Of a stretch of 61,664 nt of DNA, positions 22,568 to 42,001 are shown piece by piece. How positions within the stretch are numbered: position 1 is the stretch's first letter; the number at the start of each line of letters is the position of its first letter. Source of the stretch: Candidatus Eiseniibacteriota bacterium (GTDB lineage Bacteria; Joyebacterota; Joyebacteria; Joyebacterales; Joyebacteraceae); the NCBI GenBank assembly GCA_030622115.1, contig JAUXGN010000015.1:1-61664 (forward strand). Reading direction: 5' to 3'. Position numbers and translations under genes: made by a program. The notes beneath the pieces were generated by a model, which saw nothing but the letters and a program-made list of their open reading frames with translations, had not been told where the DNA came from and searched no databases.

Positions 22568-23026
22568 TCACTCCGCCACCTCCGCCAGCATCACGATCGC
22601 ATCCTCGCCGTTGTCCGTGTAGTATCCCCTGCGAATCGCCACCGGTCTGAATCCGTAACGTTCGTACAGAGCGATGGCCCCCTCGTTGGATGAGCGCACC
22701 TCGAGCGTCGCCAGACGCACTCCTCGTTCGCACGCGGTACGAATCCCCTCGGCCAGGAGTCGCTTTGCGATACCCTGCCTCTGTCTCGATCCTGTGACCG
22801 CCATGTTCCCTATATGGAATTCGTCCTCGATGATCCAGCCGATGATGTAACCGACAACGTGCCCCTGCTCCTCAACGATGAGCGCGAGTGTCGGAGGCGA
22901 GCGTTTGAGATCCGCCTCGAACGCCTGTCTCGACCACGGGGTCGGAAACAGCTCCGTCTCAATGGCACACACATCATCGAGGTCGCCGAGCGTCATGGCC
23001 CGGAGATCGGTGGACGGCGTTGGCAC
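22568..23026 (-). CDS. rimI: Ribosomal-protein S18 alanine N-acetyltransferase
   Basis: GNAT acetyltransferase of about 152 residues. The N-terminal 'LRAMTLGDLDDVCAIETELF' and 'PWSRQAFEADL' are RimI hallmarks, and the acetyl-CoA loop is 'GSRQRQGIAKRLLAEGI'. 'TLEVRSSNEGAIALYERYGF' and 'RRGYYTDNGEDAIVM' complete the family pattern. The start is inferred as GTG at 23026, six bases after GGGGGG, because the longer ATG-led frame runs through tsaB in a different frame. It lies between tsaB and pnp. rimI with tsaB is a common pairing. Confidence 0.9.
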   Translation of the reverse strand: MPTPSTDLRAMTLGDLDDVCAIETELFPTPWSRQAFEADLKRSPPTLALIVEEQGHVVGYIIGWIIEDEFHIGNMAVTGSRQRQGIAKRLLAEGIRTACERGVRLATLEVRSSNEGAIALYERYGFRPVAIRRGYYTDNGEDAIVMLAEVAE

Positions 23027-23063
23027 GATGCACCCCCCGGCGATGTCCAGAAGACCCAGTCTA

Positions 23064-23738
23064 TCATATGCCCCTGAGGTAGACCGGTTCAAGACCGTCA
23101 AGCTCCGGCGCTTCACCCTCGTCGGCCGCTCTGGTTGCCAATACCGCCAGCGCCACGGGGTTGCTGACATCGACGCTGGACTCGGGGACCGACAGGCCAT
23201 CACCCAGAATGGCCTTGAACTCGCGCGCATATTCGGAAGCTCCGGAACCGATTGGTTGAACCATGCGGCCGTTGGCCGCACTGAGCGCCATTCGCGCCGC
23301 CTTCTGAGGCTCGAGAGCGGCATCCTCGGAGAGACGTTCCCGTCCCTCCCCCTTCGCTTCAAACAGAGCGCAGTAGACTTCTCCCTTCCTCGCGTCGACC
23401 GCCGAGAGGATCAGCCCGTCGCGAGCAGCCGCGCTCGTCGCGAGCGCCTCGGTCGTTGAGACAGGCCAGACCGGTAGCCCGATCGAAACAGCCAGCCCTT
23501 TGGCGGTCGCCAGACCAACCCTGAGGCCACTGAATCTGCCGGGCCCCACTGCGACGGCTATGCCGTCGAGGTCTGATAGAGCGACTCCTGCCTCACGAAG
23601 GACCGTCGCAACAGCCTCCATCAAGCGCTCGGCATGCCCTCTCTCCACACGTCTCTCCGAGACGTGCAGTAGTCTGTCCCCGTCCACGACGGCAACAACC
23701 TCCACGGGCGTCGACGTATCAATCGTGAGGATTTTCAT
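23064..23738 (-). CDS. tsaB: tRNA threonylcarbamoyladenosine protein TsaB
   Basis: TsaB (YeaZ), 224 residues, the noncatalytic ASKHA partner of TsaD in t6A37 synthesis. The start MKILTIDTSTP is typical, followed by 'HAERLMEAVATVLREAGVAL', 'LDGIAVAVGPGRFSGLRVGL' and 'ATAKGLAVSIGLPVWPVSTTEAL'. It overlaps tsaE by 20 bases upstream and is followed by rimI. tsaD and tsaC are not in the window. Confidence 0.94.
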   Translation of the reverse strand: MKILTIDTSTPVEVVAVVDGDRLLHVSERRVERGHAERLMEAVATVLREAGVALSDLDGIAVAVGPGRFSGLRVGLATAKGLAVSIGLPVWPVSTTEALATSAAARDGLILSAVDARKGEVYCALFEAKGEGRERLSEDAALEPQKAARMALSAANGRMVQPIGSGASEYAREFKAILGDGLSVPESSVDVSNPVALAVLATRAADEGEAPELDGLEPVYLRGI

Positions 23739-24225
23739 CTTGCGGCCGCTCTCTCCACAGTTTGAGGAGCGTACTCTTCACACGGGCGTGCCTGTCGCCA
23801 CGCGCGTAAAGCACCATGGTGCGTCTATCTGGGGCATCGATCGAAATGTGTATGTCGAGCCTCTCATCCGGAAGAAACTCCTTGGCGCGCTCCGCCCACT
23901 CGATGATCGCCACTCCTTCACCGAAGAAGAGCTCCCTGTACCCAAGATCCTCGATCTCAGCGGTATCGTGAATTCTGTAGAGATCGATGTGCAGGATCGG
24001 GACGCGCCCGGCGTATTCGTTGACCACAATGAAGCTGGGACTGGACACGTAGCCATCAAACCCGAGACCGACCGAGATGCCCTGCGCAAGCACGGTCTTC
24101 CCGCTTCCCAGATCCCCGTATAGCGCGACGAGATCACCGGCCTCAAGCACGCGCCCCAGTGCGCGACCCAGCTCCCGGCTCTCGCCGGCTGACGTGGAGA
24201 CAAGGCTCTCTGCTCTCGCACTCAT
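23719..24225 (-). CDS. tsaE: tRNA threonylcarbamoyladenosine ATPase TsaE
   Basis: TsaE (YjeE), 168 residues, the small ATPase that drives turnover of the TsaBD complex. Walker A is GDLGSGKTVLAQGISVGLG. The segments 'VSSPSFIVVNEY', 'ILHIDLYRIHD' and 'IIEWAERAKEFLP' are the family's switch and Walker-B-like motifs. The C-terminus is about 15 residues longer than in E. coli. It begins 13 bases after the porX-like stop and overlaps tsaB by 20 bases, so it is probably cotranscribed with tsaB and rimI. Confidence 0.93.
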   Translation of the reverse strand: MSARAESLVSTSAGESRELGRALGRVLEAGDLVALYGDLGSGKTVLAQGISVGLGFDGYVSSPSFIVVNEYAGRVPILHIDLYRIHDTAEIEDLGYRELFFGEGVAIIEWAERAKEFLPDERLDIHISIDAPDRRTMVLYARGDRHARVKSTLLKLWRERPQDENPHD

Positions 24226-24238: not shown

Positions 24239-25801
24239 TCACCTGGGAGTCATTATGGCACAGGGAAGAATCATCTCTTCGGTCGAGATCCCGCCATGCT
24301 GGAAGGTGCCCCGGTACTGCCGCTCGTATTTGTGGAACTCCGTCGGGTAGACGAAGTAGTAGTCCTCCTTCGCGATGGCGTACTGCTTGCTCAGACCATC
24401 GGTCGGGAGCCGGAAGCGACGTGGATCATCTATCAGGAACGTCTCCTTCGGGTTGTAGCCGAGGTTGCTTCCAAACTTGTAGCGGATGTTCGTTGTCGTC
24501 GCCTTGTTGCCTCGCACGAGTGCTGCGCGTCTCCCGAGAACGGCGCCGTGATCGGTCGTCAGAACGACCGTGGCCTTCTGCCGTGCCATCTCTTGTATGA
24601 TGTGGTACAGGGCCGAGTGAATGAACCACGAGCGAACGAGCGAGCGGAACGCCGGCTCATCCGGCGCGATCTCCTGGAGAATCTCAGACTCCGAGCGCCC
24701 GTGCGATAGGATGTCGACGAAGTTGTAGACGAGCGAAACGAACTGGAGGTCATGGAACGATCCCATTCTCCGCCTCACGTTGTCCGCTTCATCCTTCTCA
24801 TAGATCTTCACGTACTTGTGCAAAGGGCTCACTCTGATGCCCATCCGCCTCAACTGCCCATCCATGAGCTGACGCTCGTAGCGATTCTTGCTGTACTGGT
24901 CCTTCGAGTGCGCATCCCATATGTCGGGAAACTTCTCGCCGAACTCCAAGGGATAGAGTCCGCTGAACAGCGCGTTTCGCGAGTACGGCGTCGCCGTCGG
25001 CAGGATCGAGTAGTAGTAGTGATTCTCGATATTGAAGAAGGGCTCCAGACTCGGCAAGAGACTCATCCAGTGGTCGAGTCTCAGGCAATCGAGCACGACG
25101 AAGTAGACCTTCTTCTTGGCCGTCAGAAGCGGCGCCACATATTCCCGGAAGATATCCGGAGAGAGAAGCGGACGATCCGGGGTGTCGTTGACCCACCCCT
25201 CGTACGCACCCTCTACGTAGCGTGAGAACTCCGCGTTGGCCGACATCTGGAGATCACGATGGATCTGCCTGAGGCCCGGGTCTCGAACGCGGTCGAGTTC
25301 CAGATCCCAGTGCACGAACTTGGTGTAGAACTGCACCCACTCTCGCCAATCCATCGTATCCATGATCTGCGCCCGGAGCTGGCTGTTCTCCCGAGCGTAT
25401 GTCTGCGCCAGTTGGTCCCGCCGTATCTTCTGCCCATCAAGAATGCGCTTGATCGCACTCAGGACCTGCGTCGGCTTGACGGGCTTGATGAGAAAGTCAT
25501 CGATGCGCTTGCCAAGCGCATCGTTCATCAGCTCCTCTTCCTCGCTCTTGGTCACCATGACGACGGGAACGGAAGGGTCCAGCTCCTTCATCTCTGCCAG
25601 CGTCTCGAGTCCGTCCATCCCAACCATCATCTCGTCGAGCAGGACGATATCGTAGCGCCCTTCCTTGATCATCTCGATCGCTGTTTCGCCGCTGGTCGCC
25701 GTCGCCAGATCGTAGCCTCGCTGCTCGAGGAAGATGATGTGCGGCTTGAGCATGTCTATCTCATCGTCGACCCAGAGGATTCGTCTATTCGCCGTACTCA
25801 T
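24239..25801 (-). CDS. porX: PorX-like response regulator with PglZ phosphodiesterase domain
   Basis: About 520 residues in three parts. A receiver domain (1 to 125) carries acidic residues DDE near 12, phospho-acceptor Asp near 56 (VLLDEMMVGMDGL), Thr near 84 (VVMVTKSEEE) and Lys near 106 (FLIKPVKP). A helical linker (126 to 225) follows. The C-terminal alkaline-phosphatase-superfamily PglZ domain has metal ligands in VVLDCLRLDHW, nucleophile Thr in ATPYSRNALFSG near 271, VDILSHGRS, LTTDHGAVLG and a final His in FQHGGISTEEM. The architecture and motif spacing match PorX, the Bacteroidota regulator of type IX secretion that is a phosphodiesterase on oligonucleotides. The start at 25801 (MSTANRR) is chosen because conservation begins there. 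A histidine-kinase gene lies 88 bases upstream. Confidence 0.9.
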   Translation of the reverse strand: MSTANRRILWVDDEIDMLKPHIIFLEQRGYDLATATSGETAIEMIKEGRYDIVLLDEMMVGMDGLETLAEMKELDPSVPVVMVTKSEEEELMNDALGKRIDDFLIKPVKPTQVLSAIKRILDGQKIRRDQLAQTYARENSQLRAQIMDTMDWREWVQFYTKFVHWDLELDRVRDPGLRQIHRDLQMSANAEFSRYVEGAYEGWVNDTPDRPLLSPDIFREYVAPLLTAKKKVYFVVLDCLRLDHWMSLLPSLEPFFNIENHYYYSILPTATPYSRNALFSGLYPLEFGEKFPDIWDAHSKDQYSKNRYERQLMDGQLRRMGIRVSPLHKYVKIYEKDEADNVRRRMGSFHDLQFVSLVYNFVDILSHGRSESEILQEIAPDEPAFRSLVRSWFIHSALYHIIQEMARQKATVVLTTDHGAVLGRRAALVRGNKATTTNIRYKFGSNLGYNPKETFLIDDPRRFRLPTDGLSKQYAIAKEDYYFVYPTEFHKYERQYRGTFQHGGISTEEMILPCAIMTPR

Positions 25802-25889
25802 TCTGAAACCCCATCCCCTCTCAATGCACGGATCCCGGCGGACATGTGATCGGTCCACCTGAAGCGATTCTTGCGGCAGAAGACTCGTA

Positions 25890-27170
25890 CTAGCTAGCCG
25901 GAAGGCAGATCACGAAGGTCGTGCCTTTCCCGGGCTCGGACCATCCGATGTAGAGTCGCCCATCGTGATACTCCTCTACAATTCGCCTGGCCAGAGCCAA
26001 CCCCAGACCCCATCCCTTCCTCTTCGTGGAATAGCCCGGGAGAAAAACGCGCCTGCGCTCGGCGGGAGAGAGACCTCTGCCGTTGTCGGTGAAGAATATC
26101 CGCACGCCGCCTTCCTTGGTCGCGTGCTCGGTTCTGATCTCGATCGTGCCCCCCTTCGGCGGAAGCGCCTCCAGCGAGTTCTTCACGAGATTCTCAACGA
26201 CCCACTCCATCAGCTGAGCATTAACGTCAACGAGCGGGACATCCGCGTAGTCCTCTTTGATTTCGATGTCCTTGCCAAGTGAGGGCAGCCGCCAGCTGAG
26301 GTAGTCCACCGCTCCCCTCAGCACGACGGCCACATCCTGCCGCTTCATCTTCGGAGTGGAACCTATCTGATTGAATCGCTGGGAGATCCTGTCCAATCGG
26401 TCAAGGTCCCGTTGCATCTCGACCGACATCCGCGAGATCTCACCACACGACTCACATTCCTTGGACCCGGTCTCCCTGAGAAGCTCCACCCACCCCATGA
26501 GTGATGAGATCGGGGTCCCCAACTGGTGGGCGGTCTCTTTCGCCAGCCCAACCCAGATCGAACGAAGCTCCGCGATCTTCGCGTTGCGGAAGCCCAGAAA
26601 TCCTAGAAGGAGGAGAACGCCGAACGCCAGGATCTCGAGCGCCGGAACGAAGCGCATCTCCTTTATCATGCTGGACTCACCGTAGTGGACATAGCCCAGA
26701 ACGGTCTCGTCCCCTATCTGAGTCATCGGGATCGGAGAGCGACGACGATCAACCTCAGCCATCAGCCGCATCACATCGCCCAACGGTGAGTCCGAGGGGT
26801 TCTCCGGGTCGGCAGTGAGGTACTCCTCGTGGCTGATGTTCTCGGGATCGGCGGCGAGAGGGAGCCCCTTCCACGTGATGGGCACGCCTCTCACATCGGA
26901 GATGATCATGGGGAAGTTGATGCTCTCGATCAGCTCTCCGAAGACGACGGACAGCTCCACGTTCTCCCGAGCTGCGTAGGTGGCTGTGGCACAAAGCCCC
27001 GCTATGGATCGGGAGAGCGTGGCAGATTGAACCTCGAGTCTTCGAATCAGGCTGTTCGTATACAGGAAGATAACCACCGCGAGGAGCGAGACGGCGACAA
27101 AGACGTAGGCCCTCGTGCGAAGTTCCGCCGCCTGCATGTGATCAGATGTGGTTTTGAAACCCAGAGCCAT
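25890..27170 (-). CDS. Sensor histidine kinase, probable partner of the PorX-like regulator
   Basis: Membrane sensor kinase of about 426 residues. A first helix (about 22 to 42), an extracytoplasmic part (about 45 to 175) and a second helix (about 178 to 195) are visible. The cytoplasmic transmitter has the H-box WVGLAKETAHQLGTPISSL (His near 215), N-box NLVKNSLEALPP, G1 TDNGRGLSP, F-box and G2 KGWGLGLALARRIVEEYH. The unusual AHQLGTPISSL H-box resembles a family common in Bacteroidota. A CESC pair follows the H-box. There is no attached receiver. Orientation and adjacency to the PorX-like gene make it the likely phosphodonor, as PorY is for PorX, although PorY identity is inference. AAGGA precedes the ATG at 27170. 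Confidence 0.88.
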   Translation of the reverse strand: MALGFKTTSDHMQAAELRTRAYVFVAVSLLAVVIFLYTNSLIRRLEVQSATLSRSIAGLCATATYAARENVELSVVFGELIESINFPMIISDVRGVPITWKGLPLAADPENISHEEYLTADPENPSDSPLGDVMRLMAEVDRRRSPIPMTQIGDETVLGYVHYGESSMIKEMRFVPALEILAFGVLLLLGFLGFRNAKIAELRSIWVGLAKETAHQLGTPISSLMGWVELLRETGSKECESCGEISRMSVEMQRDLDRLDRISQRFNQIGSTPKMKRQDVAVVLRGAVDYLSWRLPSLGKDIEIKEDYADVPLVDVNAQLMEWVVENLVKNSLEALPPKGGTIEIRTEHATKEGGVRIFFTDNGRGLSPAERRRVFLPGYSTKRKGWGLGLALARRIVEEYHDGRLYIGWSEPGKGTTFVICLPAS

Positions 27171-27247: not shown

Positions 27248-28525
27248 CTACGCGCCGGCTATCTCATCGAGGCCATCCATGTACGGCTGGAGGACCTTGG
27301 GGATGCGAACGGCTCCCCCGGGGGTCTGGTAGTTCTCGAGGATTGCGACAATGGTCCGAGCCAGAGCAACGCCTGAACCGTTCAGTGTGTGCACGTACCT
27401 GGCCTTGCCGCCACCGACAGGACGGTACTTGATCCCGGCCCGTCTGGCCTGAAAGTCCTCGAAGTTACTGCACGAGGAGACCTCGAGCCACTTGCCGACG
27501 CCGGCCGACCACACATCGATATCGTAGCACTTCGCCGCGGCGAATGAGAGATCGCCGGTGCAGAGCGTCTTGACTCTGTACGGCAGATCGAGCCGCTCGA
27601 AGATCAGCTCCGCATTGGCGACCAGCGATTCCAGCTCATCGTAGGAGGTCTCGGGTTCCACGAACTTGACCATCTCAACCTTGTCAAACCTGTGCAGCCG
27701 CAGTAGCCCCCTGGTGTCCTTGCCGTAGGACCCGGCCTCACGCCGGAAACACGGCGTGTAGGCGGTGTGATAGATCGGCAGCCGGGCGCCATCCAGGATC
27801 TCGTCGCGGTAGAGATTGGTGAGAGGAACCTCTCCAGTCGGGATGAGAAAGAGGTCGTCGGCCTCAAGGCGGTACATATCGAACTCAAGCTTCGGAAGCT
27901 GCCCCGTCCCCTGCATTGAGTCGCGATTGGCCAGGAATGGCGGCGCAACCTCGACGTAGTCGTGCTCCGTGGTGTGGGTGTCCAGCATGAACTGAATGAG
28001 CGCGCGGACAAGACGTGCCCCCGCTCCGATGAAGACAGGGAAGCCCGATCCAGCGATCTTCGTCCCTCGCTTGAGATCGAGGATCCCAAGAGCCTCTCCG
28101 ATCTCCCAGTGCGGGACGGGATTGTCGCAGACCGACCAAGGCTCGCCCCAACTTCTGAACTCGACGTTATCGTCCTCGTCCTTGCCGATGGGCACAGATT
28201 CGTGAGGGATGTTCGGCACTGTGAGCATGAGCTCCCGGAGCTTCATCCGAACATCGGAGACCTCCTCGTCCAATCCCTTGATCCTCTCCGAGACCTCGCG
28301 CATCCGAGTGATTATCTCATCCCCACTCTCGCCCTTCCGCTTCAGCTCGGCCACGCGCTCGCTCTCGACGTTGCGCTCCTTCTTGAGTTCCTCGACCTGC
28401 ACGAGAAGAGACCTGAGCTTCTCATCGAACACAAGCAACTCGTCGAGATCCGCCTTCTCATTCTTGTTCCTGATGGCTGCCCTGACAATGTCGGGATTCG
28501 CTCTCAGGTACTTCAGGTCCAGCAT
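27248..28525 (-). CDS. serS: Seryl-tRNA synthetase
   Basis: Class II synthetase charging tRNA-Ser, 425 residues. The N-terminal coiled-coil arm (about 30 to 110, rich in Glu/Lys/Leu) binds the long variable arm. The core has motif 2 'TPCFRREAGSYGKDTRGLLR' with 'HRFDKVEMVKF', the TGEVPLTNLY segment and motif 3 'NGSGVALARTIVAILENYQ'. The start MLDLKYLRANPDIVR at 28525 is preceded by GGGAGAGGA. It lies between the kinase gene and a WecA-like gene, with 43 bases to the latter. Confidence 0.96.
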   Translation of the reverse strand: MLDLKYLRANPDIVRAAIRNKNEKADLDELLVFDEKLRSLLVQVEELKKERNVESERVAELKRKGESGDEIITRMREVSERIKGLDEEVSDVRMKLRELMLTVPNIPHESVPIGKDEDDNVEFRSWGEPWSVCDNPVPHWEIGEALGILDLKRGTKIAGSGFPVFIGAGARLVRALIQFMLDTHTTEHDYVEVAPPFLANRDSMQGTGQLPKLEFDMYRLEADDLFLIPTGEVPLTNLYRDEILDGARLPIYHTAYTPCFRREAGSYGKDTRGLLRLHRFDKVEMVKFVEPETSYDELESLVANAELIFERLDLPYRVKTLCTGDLSFAAAKCYDIDVWSAGVGKWLEVSSCSNFEDFQARRAGIKYRPVGGGKARYVHTLNGSGVALARTIVAILENYQTPGGAVRIPKVLQPYMDGLDEIAGA

Positions 28526-29976: not shown

Positions 29977-30936
29977 CTACTTCTTGAAATCGGCGACAAC
30001 GCGCTCAAGGAGCTGATCAACCGAAATCCTCGGCTCATAGCCCGTGAGATCCTTGAGCTTCGTGAGATCCGGAATCCTCCGCCTCATGTCCTCGAAGCCC
30101 CGCTCGTACGCCTTGTCGTACGGTATATAATCTACCGGCGAACCGCTATTTGTCAACTCCTTGATCCTCTCGGCGAGTTCCTCGATCGAAATGGGGGTAT
30201 CGCTCCCCACATTGAAAACCTCCCCGATCGCGGCCGGCTCGTCCGAAAGAGCGATAACGGCCCGAATCACGTCGGAAACATCACCGAAACACCGTGTCTG
30301 CTTCCCATCTCCGTAGACCGTAATCGGATGGTCCAGGAGCGCCTGCTTTACGAAACGAGGAATCACCATCCCATACTGGCCGGTCTGTCGCGGGCCACAG
30401 GTGTTGAAACACCTCACGATCACCACAGGCAGCTGTTTCTCCCTGTGGTAGGCCAGTGCCAGGAACTCGTCGATGGCCTTGGATGAGGAGTAACCCCATC
30501 GGGCAATAGTTGTCGCGCCAAGGATCCTGTCGTCGGTCTCCTTGCAGGGCTGCTGGTTGGCCTTCCCGTAGATCTCTGAGGTCGAGAAGAGTATGACCTT
30601 CTTCTTCCCCTCGTTGGCTGCCTGTAGGACGAACTCCGTGCCCTTGATATTCGTCTCGAGCGACTTCAACGGGTTGTCGATTATGTAGGCGACGCCTACA
30701 GCAGCGGCCAGATGGAAGACGGTATCGACCCTCGCGGTCGCGTCACCCACAACGCGCTCATCGAGGATGGTGTCTATTGTGTAGTGGAACTTGGAATCGT
30801 TCTCCAGGTGAGCGATGTTCTCAAACCGCCCCGTGGAAAGATCATCCACGACCCAGACCTCATCCCCCCTCTTGAGGAGCGCTTCACAGAGATGGGAGCC
30901 TATAAATCCTGCTCCGCCGGTGACAAGTGCCTTCAT
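29977..30936 (-). CDS. NAD-dependent sugar-nucleotide epimerase/decarboxylase
   Basis: Extended short-chain dehydrogenase of 319 residues. The NAD motif is TGGAGFIGSHLCEALL, then 'VVDDLSTGRFENIAHL', 'VFHLAAAVGVAYII', the Ser/Thr of 'FSTSEIYGKA' and the catalytic YSSSK. 'RCFNTCGPRQTGQYGMVIPRF' and 'ITVYGDGKQTRCFGDVSDVI' resemble UDP-glucuronate decarboxylases and UDP-glucose 4-epimerases. With a UDP-glucose dehydrogenase in the same locus, a UDP-glucuronate decarboxylase is plausible but unproven. It has its own good promoter (31003..31031), so it can be expressed apart from the upstream glycosyltransferase genes. The start at 30936 is used because the Rossmann fold begins there. Confidence 0.88.
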   Translation of the reverse strand: MKALVTGGAGFIGSHLCEALLKRGDEVWVVDDLSTGRFENIAHLENDSKFHYTIDTILDERVVGDATARVDTVFHLAAAVGVAYIIDNPLKSLETNIKGTEFVLQAANEGKKKVILFSTSEIYGKANQQPCKETDDRILGATTIARWGYSSSKAIDEFLALAYHREKQLPVVIVRCFNTCGPRQTGQYGMVIPRFVKQALLDHPITVYGDGKQTRCFGDVSDVIRAVIALSDEPAAIGEVFNVGSDTPISIEELAERIKELTNSGSPVDYIPYDKAYERGFEDMRRRIPDLTKLKDLTGYEPRISVDQLLERVVADFKK

Positions 30937-30960
30937 CGCGAGCTGTCCTCTCCAGAATGA

Positions 30961-30977
30961 GGGCCCCTGGAGGGCCC
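30961..30977 (-). promoter_or_regulatory. Hairpin in the epimerase 5' leader
   Basis: GGGCCC-CTGGA-GGGCCC forms a 6-bp GC-only hairpin. It lies between the predicted transcription start (about 30996) and the ATG (30936), so it would be in the mRNA leader. It may shield the leader or act as residual termination of upstream read-through. Confidence 0.4.
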
Positions 30978-31002
30978 CGATCAAGCAGATCCAAGAGATG
31001 GG

Positions 31003-31031
31003 AGTATACTGTTTCCTCCCGCACGCGGCAA
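31003..31031 (-). promoter_or_regulatory. Promoter of the epimerase gene
   Basis: On the minus strand TTGCCG (31031..31026), a 17-base spacer and TATACT (31008..31003). The -10 matches the consensus at five of six positions. It lies between the stop of the glycosyltransferase fusion and the epimerase gene. Confidence 0.65.
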
Positions 31032-31127
31032 CCGTTTTGCGAGATACTCCCCGCCCGCAGCCTACCTCACGCAGGGTGTGCACCGCCTCCAGAGGGGCAA
31101 GCCGCGAATCCCGCACCGGGCCCGTGC

Positions 31128-34100
31128 CTAAACGGACGGCTCACCGTAGACGAGTTCGTCGTAGAGATCCTCCAGCCCACGAATCATCTTCTCCTCGGAG
31201 AACGAACGATCGAACTCCTGGACTGCTCTGTGACTCATTCCGTCACGGAGCGTACGATCATCGACGAGGAGGGACAGCCGATCGACCATATCGTCGATCG
31301 CACCGGAAGCCACCAGAAAACCGTTCTTGCCCTCGACTACGCTCTCCCTGATCCCGGCCGTATCGTATGCGACGACGGGCACGCCCGTCGCCAACGCCTG
31401 CGGCACGACTCGCGGCAGTCCTTCCCAAAGCGAGGTTAGTATGAAGATGTCCATCGCTCGTAGAAGTTCGTCGACATCGCCGCGAATTCCAAGCAGGCTC
31501 ACGCGGTCCGCCAGCCCGGCCTCAGCTATCTCCGCCTCCACCGATGCGCGAAGCGGACCGTCCCCGACATAGATGAAGCGGAGGTTCTCGAAGCGCTCTG
31601 AGAGTTCGACTGCAACGCGGACGAAGTCGGATGGGTTCTTCTGAAGAGAGAGACGCCCCACGGTTCCGATGACAAGATCTTCCCGACCCACTCCCATCTT
31701 CTCTCGAGCGCGCAGCCTGGATTCCGCGTCACAATGGAAACGCGACAGCGGGATGCCGCTCCGGATCAGACGATAGACACCCGGCGAGCCGATCCCGGCC
31801 TCCAGTCCCACTCGTGTGGTCCGTTCCGAGACTGATACGAGAGCGTGCGTCAACGGCTCAAGGAGCTTCTCAAGTGTGATGTAAAACCAACGAAGCACCG
31901 GACTCATGTGCTCATGAAATCCCCAGCCGTGTATCGTATGGACAATGTGCGGGACACCAGCCAGTCTCGCGGCGATGCGTCCAACGATACCGGCCTTCGA
32001 ACTGTGCGTATGAACGATGTCAAAACGGCCTTGCTTCATCAGCCGCACGAGCTGGACCAGAACTGCGAGATCCTTGAATGGATTGATCTCTCGGACGAGA
32101 TTCGGCAGCACGCGCGGCACGATCCCGACGGTTCTCGCCTCGTCCAGAAGTGAGCCCTCCGAACCTGTCTGTGGTCCCATCCACAGTCTGGAGTCGTAGC
32201 GCTCCGGAGCGACCTGAGCCACGGATGCGATCGTGTTCTCCTGCGCCCCACCAACGATGAGCCGCGTGATGATGTGCAGCACACGCGTCCTCCGGTGAGG
32301 TTCCCTCTGAGCAAGGGCGTCATCGTAGATCCGTCTCAATCTGCCTCCGTAGTCAGCACGCGCCGCCACCCAATCCTTTGCATTCGCGACCATCTCTCTG
32401 TAGCGGTCATGATCGTCGCATATCTCGATCACTTTGGCTACGACAGCCTCCGGATCGGCTCCCTCGACGAAGCAATCAGAGAGATCCGGCGGCAGCGCTT
32501 CCTCGACACCGTCCGTGCGTCGCACGACGGGCACCCTCCCTCTCGCCAGCGCCTCCAGCACTACGAGTCCAAACCCCTCATAGTCGGAGAGAAGAAGCAC
32601 GAGGTCAGCGTCGTCGAGTTCCGCAGCGACGTCCGACACGGCGTGGCGAAGCTCAACGAGTTCCCTGATGCCGAGTTCGTCGGAGAGCCTTTCGAGTCTC
32701 TCCCGCTCGGGACCGTCACCGACAACACGGAACTCGAAACGCCCGGGGCGAAGCTGCTCCAGCTGTTCCGCCATCTTCAGGAAGATATCCACTCGCTTGA
32801 CGCGGTGCAACCGACCTACCATCAGAAGACGGATGCGTCCATCTCTTCTGAAGAGAGGCGCCGGCCGTTCTGCAAGCGGTACCGTCGGCGGACTCTGCAC
32901 AACCACGGGAAGCATGCCGTATCGTCCGAGATACGCTTTCGCAGCGACGACCGCTCCGCTGACCGCCAGGACCAGTTGCGCCCGTCTGAGGACAAATCGC
33001 TCTACGGCTCTGGGGATCGCGGTCATCCAGACGTCGACACTGTGTTTCGTCGACACCCACGGCACACGCCCACGGAAGCCGAAGTACGCAGCGATATCTC
33101 CGGGGAGAAGATGCGAATGAACGAGATCCGGTTCGTAGAGCGCCGCGATGTTGGCCGCTCTCCTCCAATCGGCCGGCCGTCTCCACCCCTTCAGACCTGC
33201 AACGAAGACGTCGAGCCCTCGCAGCCGGAGTTCCTCCCCTATCTCCCCCACGTGCGTGAGACACAGAATCGCGAATCGGAAGCTCGACCCGAGAGATCCC
33301 TCGACCGTCGCCTCCACGATTCGCTGCGCCCCGCCAAACTCCATATTCGGGATGACCTGAAGTACAAGCGGCCGCTTGTCATCCGGATCCGCGAAGTGCT
33401 GTTCGGGAAATTCCATCAGCCGCGACGGATGTGCATTCTGGCCGGTCTCGTCCTGCGACCAGCGAAACCGGGTGAGCGCATTCGCCAGGAGAGCATAGAT
33501 GGCGGCCCGCCGCCGCGAGCGTTCTCGCCGCCCTGCGCCGCTCCTTGTGCGCGTGTCCCCCCCGTGGTGAACGGTCGCCGGACGCCGGAGCACAGACTCA
33601 ATGCGATAAGCCAACGCCCTGAATCGCAGACGGCGAAGCCAGATGCGACGGATACGTTCGGCGCTCTCTCCCTCTATCTCGCAGAAGTACTGGAAGTCTG
33701 CGAGGACGCGCGCGGCGAAGGCCGGTCCCTCCTGCCCGCGAGTCGTGGCGCCACCCGCGTGTGCGAACTTCGCGCCCCGAACCAATCCAACTCGAAGCCC
33801 GCGCTCGTGCGCGCGACGACACCATTCGGAATCCTCGTGATAGAGAAAGAAGTCGTCGCACATCGGCCCGAGTCGATCCAGCGCCTCCCTGCCAACCGCC
33901 ATGACCGCTCCGGACACCATCGGTACTTCGATGATCTCAGAACCGGACGGTGCCTCCGCCCCGGTCATGCCCCGCTTCCGCGCGGGAAGGAAGAGCCCCT
34001 CCCGAAGGATGCCGGACACCGTCGGTAGATCTCTGCCTGCTGTTCTGACCGTCCGGCCGTCAGCGGCGACGAGAAGCGCTCCCATGATCCCGAAATCCTG

Positions 34101-34415
34101 GTGCGCTTCGAGGGCTCGGCCCATGACCAGAAGCGCGTCGCCCACCGGCGCCACGTCCGGATTCAGAATCAGCACGTGCGATTCGCCGGCCTCGTCAAGA
34201 CCCAGGTTCACACCGGCTGCGTAGCCACGGTTTGTCGACGCGATTACCACGCGGGCGCGCGGTACTGCGACACGGATGGCATCAACGCTTCCATCGCGCG
34301 ATGCGTTGTCCACCACAATGATGTCCCAGTCAGGGCACTGCGATTCGAGTGTTCGCACGTTGTTCACGATCTCTGAGCCGCCGTTGTAGTTGACGACCAC
34401 GACAGCGATGCTCAT
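31128..34415 (-). CDS. Triple glycosyltransferase fusion (GT2-GT4-GT4)
   Basis: One uninterrupted frame of 1095 residues holding three glycosyltransferases. Residues 1 to about 310 are a GT2 rhamnosyltransferase-like domain (VVVVNYNGGSEIVNNV, VVDNASRDGS, LNPDVAP, FFLYHEDSEWCRR). About 348 to 715 is a first GT4 domain (VIPNMEFGGAQRIVEA, HSHLLPGDIAAYFG, LLMVGRLHRVKRVD, DYEGFGLVVLEALA). About 725 to 1095 is a second GT4 domain (IITRLIVGGAQENTIAS, HTHSSKAGIVGRIAA, 'GTVGRLSLQKNPSDFV', LWEGLPRVVPQALATG). The start at 34415 overlaps the next gene's stop by four bases. The domains probably add successive sugars of a repeat unit at the inner membrane. Separate genes are the usual arrangement. Confidence 0.88.
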   Translation of the reverse strand: MSIAVVVVNYNGGSEIVNNVRTLESQCPDWDIIVVDNASRDGSVDAIRVAVPRARVVIASTNRGYAAGVNLGLDEAGESHVLILNPDVAPVGDALLVMGRALEAHQDFGIMGALLVAADGRTVRTAGRDLPTVSGILREGLFLPARKRGMTGAEAPSGSEIIEVPMVSGAVMAVGREALDRLGPMCDDFFLYHEDSEWCRRAHERGLRVGLVRGAKFAHAGGATTRGQEGPAFAARVLADFQYFCEIEGESAERIRRIWLRRLRFRALAYRIESVLRRPATVHHGGDTRTRSGAGRRERSRRRAAIYALLANALTRFRWSQDETGQNAHPSRLMEFPEQHFADPDDKRPLVLQVIPNMEFGGAQRIVEATVEGSLGSSFRFAILCLTHVGEIGEELRLRGLDVFVAGLKGWRRPADWRRAANIAALYEPDLVHSHLLPGDIAAYFGFRGRVPWVSTKHSVDVWMTAIPRAVERFVLRRAQLVLAVSGAVVAAKAYLGRYGMLPVVVQSPPTVPLAERPAPLFRRDGRIRLLMVGRLHRVKRVDIFLKMAEQLEQLRPGRFEFRVVGDGPERERLERLSDELGIRELVELRHAVSDVAAELDDADLVLLLSDYEGFGLVVLEALARGRVPVVRRTDGVEEALPPDLSDCFVEGADPEAVVAKVIEICDDHDRYREMVANAKDWVAARADYGGRLRRIYDDALAQREPHRRTRVLHIITRLIVGGAQENTIASVAQVAPERYDSRLWMGPQTGSEGSLLDEARTVGIVPRVLPNLVREINPFKDLAVLVQLVRLMKQGRFDIVHTHSSKAGIVGRIAARLAGVPHIVHTIHGWGFHEHMSPVLRWFYITLEKLLEPLTHALVSVSERTTRVGLEAGIGSPGVYRLIRSGIPLSRFHCDAESRLRAREKMGVGREDLVIGTVGRLSLQKNPSDFVRVAVELSERFENLRFIYVGDGPLRASVEAEIAEAGLADRVSLLGIRGDVDELLRAMDIFILTSLWEGLPRVVPQALATGVPVVAYDTAGIRESVVEGKNGFLVASGAIDDMVDRLSLLVDDRTLRDGMSHRAVQEFDRSFSEEKMIRGLEDLYDELVYGEPSV

Positions 34416-35644
34416 GCCCTGTCCAACCCCCTGTAGATATCGTCGTACTGCTTGAGCGTCGCGTGCATGTCCAGCTCCGCTCCGGCATATGCGGTGCACC
34501 GTTTCCGCACGGCGCCGGACCTGAAGTCGTCCGATTCGAAGAACGCCCCTACGCGGCGCGCCGCATCGTCTTCGTTGTCGGGATCAACAATGATCCCGAT
34601 TCTCTCCTCCCGAATCCACTGCTCCGTATCGCCGATCCCGGCGCTGCCGATAACGGCGAGGCCCGCAGCCAAGTACTCAGCGAACTTGATGGGAGCGCAT
34701 ACTGTTCTATTGATGTCATCCGCTTCCAGCATGAGGCCGGCATCTCCGGCGCTCAGCAGAACCGGGACATCTTCGACAGGAGCAGTCACAAAGTGAACGT
34801 GCTCCGGAGAGAGACCGATCTCCCCGGCCAGTTCCTCGGCCGGGAGTGTCGATGGATAGGCGGCAACCAGGAGCCTGATACCGGTGTTCTGATCCGCGAT
34901 ACGTCGAACAATGCTCATGCCCGCTCGGAGCCTATGCCACGGCGCCGTGGAACCGACGTAGACGATGACTGTGTTGTGTTCCCAACCCAGCCGTTCTCTC
35001 AGAGCGCGCGCCGGTTTCTGAGCTCCCGTGAAGCGCTCGCGGTCAACTCTGTTCGGAATGACTGTGATGCGCTCGTCATGGGTGACACCGACGAGATCGG
35101 GCCTGGATAGCAGGTGATCCCTGAAGCGCTCCGAAACCACGACTACAATATCCGAAGCATGTATCAGCGTTCGCTCCAACCACCGGACAAAGGCGAGCTT
35201 CCGTGTCCCGTGTTTCAGGGCGCCTTCGAAGATGTACTCATCCACAAAGAGCCCTCTCATATCAAACACGAGTCGCGCGCGAGTCATCATCACAACCGGC
35301 AGCACCATGACCGTGGGTATGTAGCTTCTGGAGTGCACGATCCGAACCCCGTGGAAGAGCACCTGCGCCAGCACAGCGAGCGCCCCCAATGGGATCTCGA
35401 GCCAACGCGACCCGATCACCGGGAGAGCAACGTGCCGAACACCCTTGGCAGCCAATCGGGCGCGCATCCCGTTGTATGCCTCAAGATCGCTCTTCGTGCG
35501 GCTTCGACGCGACGGTTCAAATGAGGCCACCGTGAACGGTCGCTTCTCTGCGAGCGCGAGTACCTGGTCTATTCCGTGGAGCCGCGGTATGGGTTCCGTC
35601 AGGCTCTTGTGAAAGAGATAGAGTACCCTGCCAGGTTTTCTCAT
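34412..35644 (-). CDS. Glycosyltransferase family 4
   Basis: GT-B-fold retaining glycosyltransferase, about 410 residues. The N-terminal domain begins VLYLFHKSLTEPIPRLHG, and 'HSRSYIPTVMVLPVVM' and 'VFDMRGLFVDEYIFEG' follow. The C-terminal domain has the nucleotide-sugar segments 'VIPNRVDRERFTG', 'VIVYVGSTAPWHRLRAGM' and 'IKFAEYLAAGLAVIGSAGIG' in place of the EX7E loop. The start at 35644 overlaps the polymerase gene's stop by four bases. It would transfer one sugar of the exopolysaccharide or O-antigen repeat. The acceptor and donor are not deducible. Confidence 0.88.
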   Translation of the reverse strand: MRKPGRVLYLFHKSLTEPIPRLHGIDQVLALAEKRPFTVASFEPSRRSRTKSDLEAYNGMRARLAAKGVRHVALPVIGSRWLEIPLGALAVLAQVLFHGVRIVHSRSYIPTVMVLPVVMMTRARLVFDMRGLFVDEYIFEGALKHGTRKLAFVRWLERTLIHASDIVVVVSERFRDHLLSRPDLVGVTHDERITVIPNRVDRERFTGAQKPARALRERLGWEHNTVIVYVGSTAPWHRLRAGMSIVRRIADQNTGIRLLVAAYPSTLPAEELAGEIGLSPEHVHFVTAPVEDVPVLLSAGDAGLMLEADDINRTVCAPIKFAEYLAAGLAVIGSAGIGDTEQWIREERIGIIVDPDNEDDAARRVGAFFESDDFRSGAVRKRCTAYAGAELDMHATLKQYDDIYRGLDRA

Positions 35645-37020
35645 GCGGCGTCTCCCCGTTTGCGCTCTGAAGCGGTCATGCTCGCCGCGAGAGCGAAGAG
35701 CATCCACAGCAAGTAGTTACCCGACGCCTCTGTAGTAGGAAAGGTCTGTGCCTGAACGTAGAAGGCGACTCCCGCCGCAAGCACGGCAACGCGGGGCCAG
35801 CCCGGACGGCCCCGCGATCGAACCATGCCCAGGAAGAATATCACGCAGAGCGCCCCATACAAGAGAATCCCAGGCACACCGAGAGCCATGCCTCTCTGCA
35901 GGAAGTAGTTCTCTGCACCGAAGGCCACAACGTGAGCTCTGGTTACCTGGTAGTCGTGCTCGAGTGCCCTCCTGATGCCACCCCATCCAACTCCGACAAA
36001 CGGATGGGCACGCATGACAGCGAGTGCCTGTGAGTAGGTGACAAGCCGAGCAACTCCCGTGGTCGCCTCACCCTTGAAGACCCGCTCCGCCTTGTTCAGA
36101 AAGGCCGCCGGGGCAAAAGCAGTCAGGAGAACGAAGAACAGGAGCAGAAGCACGATCGTGCGCCGTCCCCATCCGATGACAAGAGCAGTCACGACTCCAG
36201 CGGTCATCCCAATCAGTCCGCCAATCGAGTAAGTGAAGAGATTGCAGTACACCGCTGCGATGGCCAGAAGGGCGACGAAAACGCGGAGTCCTCGCGAAAG
36301 CCTGTGCGCCAGAAGGCCGATCGCGATCGCCACACTGACAGACAGGTAGTGCGAGAACAAGAGCGTCATCTTAAATGTCGAGAACACCCGGAGGTTGCGC
36401 TCTCCGTGGAAGCCGTAGGCTATGAGTCTGTTCCCCCAGTCCGGCAGATCGGCCCCGAACGGAAGCAACGCTTGGTAGAAGCCGTAGACAATTGCCGGGA
36501 CGAGCCCGACGAGGACAGCGAGAAGAGTCCGGGTTGCCTGCCGGCCGTCGCGCACAACGGTCGTCGCTACGACGAACACCGCGATCTGCCCGATGATCCG
36601 GTATATGGATGCGACACCCCAGAAGAAATGGGACGCGGTGAATAGCCCCGCGATACTCAACAGAACAATCGCAGCCGCGATATGGAGGGTGCGACGTTCG
36701 CGCCACATGTCTCTGAAGCCCCCTCGTCGAACGGAGGCTACCACAAGCCACAAGAGAAGTACGTCACTGGCGCACAGTGAGACCGTTCCATGGAAGTCGA
36801 AAGAGAGAGGCTCCCGCAGCGGGATTGAGGCAACGAACACATACCACAGTGCTTCAAGGGGACCGAACTGCCGTGAAAGCGCCACACCAGCGACGACCGC
36901 AACAACACCAATGGCAGTAGGTAGTGGGGCGGCGTTCACGGCGAGGGCCAGGAGCCCAAGAACCCCAGCGAGGAGAATCCAGACGCCGGCCGACTTCCCC
37001 ACTGACAGAGGTTCCGTCAC
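35641..37020 (-). CDS. O-antigen ligase/polymerase-like membrane protein (Wzy/WaaL)
   Basis: Polytopic protein of 459 residues with about twelve hydrophobic helices and a larger extracytoplasmic loop near residues 310 to 390. That loop contains RLVTYSQALAVMRAHPFVGV and GWGGIRRALEHDY, the pattern of the Wzy_C domain of polymerases and ligases (R, H and G-x-G positions). It would join repeat units or ligate them to lipid A core in the periplasmic leaflet. Position between a GT4 and a Wzx flippase favours the polymerase role. The start is GTG at 37020 with GGAGG six bases before it, overlapping the flippase stop by four bases. Confidence 0.85.
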   Translation of the reverse strand: MTEPLSVGKSAGVWILLAGVLGLLALAVNAAPLPTAIGVVAVVAGVALSRQFGPLEALWYVFVASIPLREPLSFDFHGTVSLCASDVLLLWLVVASVRRGGFRDMWRERRTLHIAAAIVLLSIAGLFTASHFFWGVASIYRIIGQIAVFVVATTVVRDGRQATRTLLAVLVGLVPAIVYGFYQALLPFGADLPDWGNRLIAYGFHGERNLRVFSTFKMTLLFSHYLSVSVAIAIGLLAHRLSRGLRVFVALLAIAAVYCNLFTYSIGGLIGMTAGVVTALVIGWGRRTIVLLLLFFVLLTAFAPAAFLNKAERVFKGEATTGVARLVTYSQALAVMRAHPFVGVGWGGIRRALEHDYQVTRAHVVAFGAENYFLQRGMALGVPGILLYGALCVIFFLGMVRSRGRPGWPRVAVLAAGVAFYVQAQTFPTTEASGNYLLWMLFALAASMTASERKRGDAA

Positions 37021-38486
37021 GACTTGCCTCCATCACCGGATACGCGCCCCGGCAACCCGGAGCGAAAGCGCAACCGACGCAGCTCACCGCGGAGTTCCGG
37101 ATCAAGCACCACCCAGATGCTCGCGAACGCGGAGCCCAGCAGAACCGCTGCACCGATAACGGCAATGATCCCGCTCCCCCTGGAGAGAACGTGTGCAAGC
37201 CCCCAGGCGGGCGCCAGCACGATCACCGTGGTCACGACGGGCGCCCTGAGTGCCCTAAACATGTCACTCCGTCCGATTCCCAAGATCGACGCAGCGGCCG
37301 GCCAGCCGACGGCGAGAGCGGCGGCGGCGGCTACCGTCATCACGCAGGCCACGCCCGCAACACCCCATCGACCGGCAACCGGATAGAGCCCCACGACTGC
37401 CACCGCAAGTTGCACTCCGCAGATCGTCCGAAAGACGTGCGGTCGTCCGGTCCCGATCAGAAGATCCCCGACAAGAGCCGAGAGAGCGCGAAACAGAGCG
37501 AAGACGCCAAGCAGAGCGAGCGGCACAACTGCCGCCTCCCACTTGCTTGCGTAGAGTGCGGTGAGAAGCGGACGCCCGAGGAAAGCAAGGCCCACAGCAT
37601 ACAGAAGCCCGGCTCCGGCCATGCACGACGTTGCCCGGAGGAAGAGGGTTCGCTGCGCGACCCTGTCTTCACGAAGTGAGCTGTACGTGGGAAAGAGCAC
37701 CGTATTGAGGATTCTGACCAAGAGCGTCGCCGGGATATTCGCGATCGCATAGGCGAAGACGTAGATCCCGAGCGAGTGCGTACCGAGCAATCGGCTCAGG
37801 GTCAGCCTGTCGGCGTTTCGAAAGGCAAAGATAAGCGCGCTGCCACCGATGACGGTCCACCCGAACGCAAGGTTCTGCCTCGCGAGTCCTGCATTGAAGC
37901 GCAGGCGAGGCTTCCACGGGGATACGATCCAATAAGAGACGGTTTCGAGAAACACGGATGCGATCTCGCCGCCGAGCAGCGCCCAAGCTCCGGCGCCACG
38001 AAACGCAAGGAAGAGAGAGACCACCAGATAGGCCAGAGAACCTGCGAGTGCCGGAACGAGCTTCTGCCTGAAATCGAGAGCCTTCTCGAACAGTCGAAAT
38101 GGGACCATGCGGAAGGCGTGAAGCAGGACGATGATCAACCCCACCCGGAAGAGATCCGTCATCGCCTCTTCGCCATAGAAGCGGCCGATCTGGGGTGCCA
38201 CCAACCAGGCAACAACGATCAGCACGGTACCGATCGCTACTGACAGCAGGAACGACGTGTCAGCGGCTTCGCCCGTCTCGTCCTGTTTGTAGACAAGAGC
38301 GTGCCCGATGCCCAGTCCCTGAAGCAGAGCCAGTCCGTCCAGGATGATGAAGACCGCGAAGAACAGGCCGAAATCGCTCGGCGTGAGGAGACCGCCCAGC
38401 ACGAACAGCGCAACGTAGCGGACGGAACGAACCGCAAACATCGCGCCACCGACCCATGCTACACCCTTGAGCACGGTTCTCTTCAT
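37017..38486 (-). CDS. Wzx-type polysaccharide flippase
   Basis: MOP-superfamily exporter, 489 residues, with about fourteen predicted membrane helices. The N-terminus 'VLKGVAWVGGAMFAVRSVRY' with 'LLTPSDFGLFFAVFIILDGLALLQGLGIGHALV' is typical of the WzxC/RfbX group. The basic loop 'RLFEKALDFRQKLVPAL' is a frequent landmark. It would flip undecaprenyl-linked repeat units to the periplasm. It is coupled by four-base overlaps to wzy downstream and wzz upstream. Confidence 0.88.
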   Translation of the reverse strand: MKRTVLKGVAWVGGAMFAVRSVRYVALFVLGGLLTPSDFGLFFAVFIILDGLALLQGLGIGHALVYKQDETGEAADTSFLLSVAIGTVLIVVAWLVAPQIGRFYGEEAMTDLFRVGLIIVLLHAFRMVPFRLFEKALDFRQKLVPALAGSLAYLVVSLFLAFRGAGAWALLGGEIASVFLETVSYWIVSPWKPRLRFNAGLARQNLAFGWTVIGGSALIFAFRNADRLTLSRLLGTHSLGIYVFAYAIANIPATLLVRILNTVLFPTYSSLREDRVAQRTLFLRATSCMAGAGLLYAVGLAFLGRPLLTALYASKWEAAVVPLALLGVFALFRALSALVGDLLIGTGRPHVFRTICGVQLAVAVVGLYPVAGRWGVAGVACVMTVAAAAALAVGWPAAASILGIGRSDMFRALRAPVVTTVIVLAPAWGLAHVLSRGSGIIAVIGAAVLLGSAFASIWVVLDPELRGELRRLRFRSGLPGRVSGDGGKS

Positions 38487-39730
38487 AGGGATTCCGGCGA
38501 GAGATCAGTCCCTTCCGCAGCGTCCTTTCGTCCCCAGCTCGCGAGCGGCTTCAGCAACCGAAGGAGGATCCGGGATTCTCTGGAGTCAGTGATCGTGGTG
38601 GGTGACTCCGTGTCCTCTGCGAAATCAAGGAAGGATTCGGCCGCAAGCGTCATTCCAAGCGAGGCAGCAAGTGCGAGAAGAGTAGTGAGGATACAGACAA
38701 TGCTCCTGCGCGGGCGGGTCTTCTTGATGGGAGGAACGGCCTCATCAAGAACCATCACGACCTGGAGGTCCCTGGACTCCTGAATCCGCGCGTCCTCGAG
38801 CTGCGCCCGCAGGAACTCGTAGACCTTCTCGTGAACCATGACTTCACGCGAGAGATCCGCGTACTGGAACACAAGTGACGGTATCTCGTCCACTGGGAGA
38901 AAGACCCCGCTCGGCGGGCTCGAATCCCCATCCATGGAGCCTCCTCGCAACTCTTCAAGCGCCTGCCCGATTGCGCTCAATCTCGTTTCAATCTCACGTA
39001 GCCTCGGCTGGCTGGGCAACGAAAACGTCTCCAAAACACGTTTTTCGATCTCGAGCTTGCCGCGTTCCGATTCCAGCTCCGCCACGACCTCGACGGTGAC
39101 GCGCGTCTGCGCAGATAGCTCGATAGCACCGTTGGCCTTTTGGAATGCACGGAGCTCTTCGGCCGATTCATCGAGACGGACCCTCACATCGACAATCGCA
39201 CTCTCAATGAACTCCCGCGTCCGGCCGGCGTTCCGAACGCTCACACGGCGACTGTGCTCGTCTAGATACTCCGCAAACGCGTTGGCCATGTTTGCGGCCC
39301 GCTTCGGGTCTCGGTCCTCTACCCAGATCTCTATGAGTCCCTCGGCTGTCGTGTTGAAGCGAATGTGATCCCACAGGTCCTCAATGGCGTGTCCTCTTGT
39401 CTCGGCGCCGTACACCGACACAAGATCGAACCTGTCGACGATCTTGCCCCTAAGAAGCCGGCTTTTCAGGATGCCGATGCTCAGATCGGTAGCCGGCGTC
39501 GTGGAGAGGAGCCCGGAGCCGCCGAAATCCATGCCGATCTTTGTGAACATACCGAGCAGACTGCCGCGGGACTCTCCCTCTTCCGGCGGCATGATCAGGC
39601 TACTGGCCCCGTACCAGTTGGGGAGCAGAAGACTGACGATCACGGAGACTATGGCCGCCGTCCCCGTCACACGGTAGATGAAACGTCTCCAAGAAAAGAG
39701 GACACCTATTGCGCTCGCGTTCTTCCGCAT
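38483..39730 (-). CDS. Wzz-type chain-length determinant
   Basis: Polysaccharide co-polymerase of 415 residues. Two membrane helices bracket a long periplasmic coiled-coil region: the first near residues 20 to 40 (AAIVSVIVSLLLP) and the second near 345 to 370 (SIVCILTTLLALAASLGMTLAAE). The Pro-rich 'VMVLDEAVPPIKKTRPRR' precedes helix 2, as in the Wzz family. There is no cytoplasmic tyrosine-kinase domain, so any BY-kinase is separate or absent. It probably sets chain length with the neighbouring Wzy. A GGAG site precedes the ATG. Confidence 0.9.
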   Translation of the reverse strand: MRKNASAIGVLFSWRRFIYRVTGTAAIVSVIVSLLLPNWYGASSLIMPPEEGESRGSLLGMFTKIGMDFGGSGLLSTTPATDLSIGILKSRLLRGKIVDRFDLVSVYGAETRGHAIEDLWDHIRFNTTAEGLIEIWVEDRDPKRAANMANAFAEYLDEHSRRVSVRNAGRTREFIESAIVDVRVRLDESAEELRAFQKANGAIELSAQTRVTVEVVAELESERGKLEIEKRVLETFSLPSQPRLREIETRLSAIGQALEELRGGSMDGDSSPPSGVFLPVDEIPSLVFQYADLSREVMVHEKVYEFLRAQLEDARIQESRDLQVVMVLDEAVPPIKKTRPRRSIVCILTTLLALAASLGMTLAAESFLDFAEDTESPTTITDSRESRILLRLLKPLASWGRKDAAEGTDLSPESL

Positions 39731-39782
39731 CAGACTCCATTCCCACCGTTGTCAGGTCTGCCGGCGAACCGGGAAACATCGG

Positions 39783-41375: not shown

Positions 41376-41503
41376 GGTCTTCCTGTTCTCTGTGGACGCA
41401 CGCGAAGCACGCCCCGGGGCAGGTGAAGCCTTGACGCTTCGGACCGCGAACGCTCATTATCTGCCGCTGCCGGCGGAGGCGTCAAGCGCTTTCGGCGCCA
41501 CGA

Positions 41504-42001
41504 CTAGCCTTCCTCGAGACTCCAGTCGTACGGAACGGTCCCGTCATGTGGATCTACGCGGAACTCATCCGGCTCGTCATAGTTGTAGGACTTGGTCGGG
41601 CAGTTCACAAGAAACCCGGGCGCATCTCCGATGGCCTTCATTCCGTGGAGCACACCCGGAGGAATCGTGATGAGAATCGGGTTGAGTTCACCCATGAAAA
41701 ACTCGTTGATCTCACCTCGGGTCGGCGAATCCGGACGATCATCGTAGAGGACGACTTTCATCATCCCCTTCACGATCGTGAAGAAGTCCGTCTGCACCTT
41801 GTGGTAGTGCCAGCCCTTCACGACGCCCGGGTAGGCCACAGACAGGTAGACCTGACCGAACTCCTGGAAGATCTCGTCATCCGAACGGAGCATCTCCATC
41901 AGATAGCCGCGTTCGTCAGGGATGAGCCTCAGTTCCTTGACACTGACACCGTCAATCAGTCGCTTCGCTTTGATTCCCCTGGGCAGTATCGTTCCGGCCA
42001 T
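41504..42001 (-). CDS. RmlC-like cupin (dTDP-sugar 3,5-epimerase family)
   Basis: Cupin-fold protein of 165 residues related to dTDP-4-dehydrorhamnose 3,5-epimerase. Family features are LIPDERGYLMEMLRSDDEIF, the metal-free cupin segment 'VVKGWHYHKVQTDFFTIVKG', 'IPPGVLHGMKAIGDAPGFLV' and 'NCPTKSYNYDEPDEFRVDPHD'. The catalytic His of RGLHYQ corresponds to the His in KGWHYH. It probably acts on a nucleotide sugar for the adjacent locus. rmlA, B and D are not in the window. The start at 42001 has GAGGAGGAG directly upstream, and ugd precedes it by 16 bases. Confidence 0.87.
   Translation of the reverse strand: MAGTILPRGIKAKRLIDGVSVKELRLIPDERGYLMEMLRSDDEIFQEFGQVYLSVAYPGVVKGWHYHKVQTDFFTIVKGMMKVVLYDDRPDSPTRGEINEFFMGELNPILITIPPGVLHGMKAIGDAPGFLVNCPTKSYNYDEPDEFRVDPHDGTVPYDWSLEEG

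Follow-up and report, generated by a model that had tools for sequence, protein, structure and literature searches.

The window analysed here, a 61,664-nt stretch of contig JAUXGN010000015.1 (assembly GCA_030622115.1), carries on its minus strand a sensor histidine kinase gene, porY (25890-27170), and, downstream of it across a gap of 88 nt, porX (24239-25801), which encodes a response regulator with a receiver domain and a PglZ effector domain. Much of the literature on the type IX secretion system (T9SS) treats this system as confined to the Bacteroidetes or to the Fibrobacteres-Chlorobi-Bacteroidetes (FCB) group, and its porX and porY genes as puzzling unlinked "orphans". The locus in the window is instead an orthologous, operonic PorYX pair in a candidate phylum whose genome holds the T9SS translocon, sortase, and cargo, and in which the motor was undetected. 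An earlier note, made from the sequence alone, had supposed that the host might belong to a candidate phylum, and it does: the host is Candidatus Eisenbacteria (Eiseniibacteriota), the closest named record being Candidatus Eisenbacteria CSMAG_1489 (96% identity in PorX and 92% in PorY).

Identity of the response regulator

The 520-aa regulator matches the NCBIfam model T9SS_RR_PorX (NF052313) at 658.9 bits (E = 5e-198; model positions 2-513 of 513), which, against a cut-off of 300, lies far past chance. Its Pfam domains are Response_reg (90 bits; 25448-25780) and PglZ (61 bits; 24533-25114), the top five matches in a PDB search were all solved PorX chains (best E = 7.8e-137), and identity to the crystallised Porphyromonas gingivalis PorX is ~42%. 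An alignment of 111 PorX sequences that included P. gingivalis PorX showed that five receiver residues (D13, E14, the phospho-acceptor D56, T84, and K106) and seven residues of the PglZ/alkaline-phosphatase-superfamily (APS) effector (D238, the nucleophile T271, D363, H367, D417, H418, and H502) are all kept in the window protein, each being invariant in 108 to 111 of the sequences. D56, T84, and K106 are invariant in all 111, and the seven zinc-binding or catalytic residues in every sequence aligned at them, one sequence having gaps at D417 and H418; H502 falls C-terminal to the Pfam PglZ match, which includes the other six. The zinc-binding and nucleophile residues have been described, in Flavobacterium johnsoniae numbering, as D237, T271, D360, H364, D414, H415, and H499 (PMC11320123), with residue roles also taken from PMC10951265. 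Our own numbering counts from the ATG at 25801, which is preceded by a GAGGGG stretch; an alternative GTG at 25858 would give a protein of 539 aa. The PorX encoded here is an ordinary member of its family, and the earlier reading of its receiver plus PglZ architecture and active-site motifs as those of PorX was borne out.

Identity of the sensor kinase

The kinase (426 aa) starts with an ATG at 27170, exactly where the earlier note had placed the end of the pair, and is a membrane protein directly upstream of the regulator, as that note had described. Two transmembrane (TM) helices surround a ~130-aa periplasmic domain, followed by an H-box (KETAHQLGTP, with His215) and an HATPase_c domain, as would be expected of an inner-membrane sensor. 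Pfam scores were 73.8 bits for HATPase_c and 23.7 bits for HisKA, the latter slightly below its cut-off of 26.9, and curated libraries label the protein no further than histidine kinase.

A profile (A2) was built from 23 operonic kinases and searched in 30 genomes. In all 14 GldM-bearing Bacteroidota genomes, it picked out a single near full-length kinase per genome at 314-362 bits (the match covering positions 73-406 in genome G088), with the runner-up kinase reaching ~100-120 bits over the catalytic core only. Each of these 14 genomes also has one PorX above the cut-off, separated from porY by about 90 kb to 3 Mb or placed on a different contig, in agreement with the statement in the earlier note that the two are usually unlinked in Bacteroidota. 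In topology and histidine position, the Bacteroidota matches, with two TM helices (a single one scored in L162), an H-box, and ~198-217 aa beyond the histidine, fit what has been published for P. gingivalis PorY (two TM helices, H193, and about 394 aa; PMC5005315, PMC4800418). PorY-type sequences formed one clade with 100/100 support against nine other kinases of the same genomes. On these comparisons, in which P. gingivalis PorY entered by its published description only, the window kinase is the PorY orthologue. When the predicted PorY structure was used in a fold search, the kinase core dominated the matches, which offered no hint of the sensed signal.

Type IX secretion genes in the host genome

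Two candidate T9SS cargo proteins with T9SS-type C-terminal domains (CTDs) are encoded on the minus strand of the window itself, namely an M14 carboxypeptidase (47377-49770; assigned with Pfam; TIGR04183 at 41 bits, cut-off 23) and an Omp28-like secreted protein (49796-51847; TIGR04183 at 32 bits); both end in Por_Secre_tail/FlgD_ig domains, and the T9SS-type C-termini that the earlier note saw on secreted proteins were thus confirmed. Across the genome, TIGR04183 gave 93 matches over the cut-off. The genome further encodes SprA/Sov (joined score 529 bits, cut-off 200), adjoining an M28 peptidase and rimP-nusA-infB; PorU (535 bits, cut-off 420); and, beside PorU, a PorV-family protein (244 bits with the family model, cut-off 90; 179 bits with the PorV equivalog, below its cut-off of 250), and an M6-type inactive metalloprotease homologue also adjoins PorU.

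The motor was sought by profile search, which divergent homologues could escape: the GldL model found nothing in 20 Eisenbacteria genomes, the GldL and GldN models each found nothing in 17 non-Bacteroidia genomes vs 6/6 Bacteroidota controls, and the GldM model found nothing in 25 PorX-bearing genomes, including the host of the window, vs 18/80 in a Bacteroidota sample. PorXY therefore cannot act via the Bacteroidota PorL motor here, unless that motor has diverged beyond recognition. The earlier note had named porK/L/M/N, sprA, porU, and porV as genes to look for and a lack of any T9SS genes as evidence against it; SprA, PorU, PorV, and the cargo matches are present, and GldL, GldM, and GldN, the three motor proteins tested, are undetected. 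Its suggestion that the control system extends outside Bacteroidota accordingly holds for the occurrence of PorXY with T9SS genes and does not reach the known motor target.

An "Incertae sedis" Bacteroidetes class has been reported to possess PorX, PorY, SigP, Sov, PorU, and PorV without PorK/L/M/N (PMC7323717). The motor-less set found here therefore has a precedent. That class we take to be the Rhodothermia lineage; GldL, GldM, and GldN were likewise not found by us in Rhodothermales and Aliifodinibius genomes, although in the Rhodothermia/Balneolia porY is unlinked from porX, unlike in the window. Our literature search returned no paper on T9SS in Eisenbacteria.

Near PorU and PorV, a 1135-aa protein (L136:5261-8668, contig C77) has no Pfam match and resembles SprA only over positions 601-684 (26 bits); it may be a T9SS component not yet described. 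Most other Eisenbacteria genomes also contain long open frames with similarly short SprA-like matches.

Gene block and other features of the window

The porYX pair is flanked on the same strand by genes of translation and tRNA modification, assigned from Pfam and synteny. Upstream, serS (seryl-tRNA synthetase; 27248-28525) ends 77 nt before porY and is the upstream neighbour of porYX in most phyla that have the linked pair. Downstream, in the same gene block as porX, lie tsaE (23719-24225; Pfam TsaE), encoding an ATPase of threonylcarbamoyladenosine (t6A) synthesis and beginning 13 nt after porX, a tsaB-like gene with a TsaD-family domain (23064-23738) that overlaps tsaE, and a rimI-like GNAT acetyltransferase gene (22568-23362, the coordinates of a frame with the true start inside). 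From serS through tsaE, the gaps between genes are short and the minus strand yielded no terminator-like site, and transcription of the porYX block as a single unit would fit both observations.

Beyond serS and a GT4-family (MraY/WecA-type) gene, the window holds a polysaccharide assembly and export cluster (30000-43340), comprising glycosyltransferases, a Wzx-like protein, a Wzy-like ligase, a Wzz-like protein, an SLBB export protein, and a UDP-sugar dehydrogenase. The GT4 gene adjoins serS-porY-porX in nearly all Eisenbacteria relatives and in several Zixibacteria and UBP1 loci. On the plus strand, a 946-aa open frame at 4404-7244 has no Pfam, NCBIfam, or PADLOC match and may not be a gene, because it overlaps shorter minus-strand frames.

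Distribution and ancestry of the linked pair

Among Eisenbacteria genomes of at least 80% completeness (n = 16), PorX was found above the cut-off in 16/16, with the kinase directly upstream in each. A wider survey covered the best 80 named PorX loci among GTDB genomes; because the loci were ranked by their similarity to Eisenbacteria, its frequencies are not population estimates. Beyond Eisenbacteria, the survey placed a PorY-type kinase directly upstream of porX in 19 loci (one interrupted by a contig end), belonging to Zixibacteria, Latescibacterota, UBP1, one record labelled Gemmatimonadetes, one labelled Poribacteria, and unnamed bacteria. No PorY-type kinase was found in the upstream flank of porX in Ignavibacteria, Kapabacteria, Chlorobiota, Calditrichota, KSB1, Delongbacteria, Cloacimonadota, Balneolia, or Rhodothermales, and the groups with unlinked porX carry a PorY-family kinase elsewhere in their genomes, sometimes recovered in part only. 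Three long-branch PorYX operons (L111, L107, and L110), from records labelled Poribacteria or unnamed bacteria, suggest that the system extends past the classical FCB phyla.

In the PorX tree, the window regulator falls among the Eisenbacteria, which form a clade with full support next to UBP1 and relatives and apart from Bacteroidia and P. gingivalis. A PorY tree rooted on other kinases gathered all 24 unlinked sequences of six groups (Bacteroidota, Ignavibacteria, Calditrichota, KSB1, Chlorobiota, and Delongbacteria) into a single clade (support 100/99), with the linked sequences forming several lineages outside it; unlinked PorY of Cloacimonadota and of one Latescibacterota stand apart from that clade and thus point to separate losses of linkage. 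Of 1000 bootstrap trees, 934 made a linked ancestor the more economical one, 64 gave a tie, and 2 favoured an unlinked ancestor. The trees thereby favour linked porY-porX as the ancestral state, an option that the earlier note had raised, though linked ancestry is favoured rather than proven, because resolution among the short, deep PorY branches is poor and taxa were sampled non-randomly.

Across the FCB superphylum, Bacteroidia included, the gene immediately after porX on the same strand is tsaE in 96 of the 107 loci with enough sequence (counted on aligned segments; stop-to-stop tsaE frames reach back into porX). Every Eisenbacteria locus (17/17), 10/14 of the motor-bearing Bacteroidota genomes, and most of the rest show this adjacency. 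Since tsaE stays beside porX, it is porX that kept its position and porY that moved. No shared ancestral context was apparent around unlinked porY, whose neighbours varied with lineage: purA in two Ignavibacteriota genomes, hisS in one from Kapabacteria, and elsewhere purK, ABC-2 transporter, and metallophosphatase genes. Our literature search found no paper linking PorX with TsaE, and tsaE is a previously unreported syntenic anchor of porX. The adjacency may reflect a link, functional or transcriptional, between PorX and t6A synthesis.

A proposed role for PorYX and its alternatives

The window pair resembles the PorX and PorY of P. gingivalis and F. johnsoniae in having a single-copy receiver-PglZ regulator with all catalytic residues, a kinase of TM-periplasmic domain-TM-DHp-CA layout (dimerisation and phosphotransfer, then catalytic domain), and a genome with SprA, PorU, PorV, and CTD cargo. 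It differs in its Eisenbacteria host, in the undetected PorL/M/N motor, which leaves the known PorX-PorL contact unavailable, and in the joining of porY and porX in one operon, the two being unlinked in P. gingivalis as in the motor-bearing Bacteroidota genomes tested. In the characterised system, PorY autophosphorylates and phosphorylates PorX, which forms a dimer and is a zinc-dependent phosphodiesterase (PMC4800418, PMC11320123); PorX binds PorL/GldL (PMC5005315, PMC10951265), and the output in P. gingivalis raises the expression of T9SS components and cargo via the extracytoplasmic function (ECF) sigma factor SigP (PMC4800418).

With the orthology of both proteins, their intact active sites, their linkage, the genome content, and the trees in hand, we consider it probable that the locus is a genuine PorY-PorX system in linked order, whose output is most likely the expression of the T9SS outer-membrane module and its cargo. 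A signal at the PorY periplasmic domain would lead to autophosphorylation of His215 and transfer of the phosphate to Asp56 of PorX, which, by analogy with characterised PorX, would then dimerise, the zinc-dependent PglZ/APS phosphodiesterase domain turning active. Less certainly, PorX would then most likely adjust the expression of SprA, PorU, PorV, and CTD cargo, probably through SigP or some other partner, for instance an ECF sigma factor, rather than via the PorL motor; control of T9SS genes by PorYX in Eisenbacteria is what we infer from this scheme. Three observations weigh against it: the porYX operon sits among serS, tsaE, tsaB, and rimI and not beside T9SS core genes, PorL/GldL, the best-studied PorX partner, was not detectable in the host genome by profile search, and P. 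gingivalis reports disagree on direct PorX action at T9SS genes (PMC5005315 vs PMC8050853).

In a different reading, rather unlikely in our judgement, PorXY are a true orthologous pair whose ancestral and present role is a wider envelope or nucleotide-signalling response, in which a (cyclic) dinucleotide would be the substrate of the PglZ phosphodiesterase and T9SS one target at most. PorXY occur without detectable GldL/M/N in every non-Bacteroidia genome tested, the pair lies amid translation and t6A genes with tsaE as its conserved neighbour, pGpG binding and phosphodiesterase activity have been reported for P. gingivalis PorX (PMC11320123, PMC10951265), and a large polysaccharide export and assembly cluster lies at 30-43 kb of the window. 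Yet PorX co-occurs with SprA, PorU, and CTD genes in the phylum, the Bacteroidota orthologues are experimentally tied to T9SS, and gene neighbourhood tells little about regulators. We give much less credence to the view that the kinase is unrelated to PorY and became linked to porX in these phyla; what invites it is that no curated PorY model named the kinase and that P. gingivalis PorY was compared by description, whereas each PorX-bearing Bacteroidota genome tested holds a single full-length match, about 190 bits or more over the next kinase, and the PorY-type clade is fully supported, with H-box position and topology agreeing with published P. gingivalis PorY. A mere neighbouring kinase was rejected on this unique full-length orthologue in Bacteroidota genomes.

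Recent horizontal acquisition of PorXY from Bacteroidota, which the 42% identity to P. gingivalis PorX might bring to mind, is highly improbable and was rejected on the PorX and PorY trees, both of which set Eisenbacteria apart from Bacteroidia, in a separate clade with full support next to UBP1 and related phyla; all 16 Eisenbacteria genomes, moreover, carry the pair at one conserved locus. Negligible in our view is the chance that the regulator is a bacteriophage exclusion (BREX)-type or other PglZ protein with a receiver and not PorX. It shares an APS PglZ domain with BREX-3 PglZ, which has no receiver and belongs to another family, but its scores with BREX PglZ models were only 97 bits (BREX_PglZ_3, cut-off 250) and 70 bits vs 659 bits over the full length of PorX, the tree groups it with PorX, and its neighbours are not BREX genes. 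Placement with BREX-type PglZ had been named beforehand as a possible refutation, and a BREX identity was rejected on these scores and on the location of the real BREX PglZ on another contig: the second PglZ protein of the genome is a true BREX PglZ (contig C28, L001 321-2330; PADLOC PDLC02558, 990 bits), so that the two are easily distinguished. The presence of this BREX-type gene on an 11-kb contig also suggests a BREX locus in the genome.

Implications

Returning to PorYX as a T9SS regulator, we can offer only tentatively, and with more doubt than confidence, a history in which PorXY is an ancient FCB regulator born as a porY-porX operon controlling a T9SS without the motor (or else some broader envelope response), PorL/GldL coupling being added later in Bacteroidia, after porY left porX; Eisenbacteria, Zixibacteria, and Latescibacterota would then keep the original form, working with the PglZ phosphodiesterase output alone.

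What is distinctive here is the linked gene order, the host phylum, and the undetected motor, likely the ancestral form, and PorYX in Eisenbacteria looks like an earlier version of a switch whose study has until now been confined to Bacteroidota. The orphan state of porX and porY in that phylum becomes explicable as a loss of linkage, and operonic porYX pairs should be easier to express and to test for phosphotransfer. PorX function is, moreover, separated here from PorL binding, and the role of its phosphodiesterase can be asked in a system without a detectable motor.

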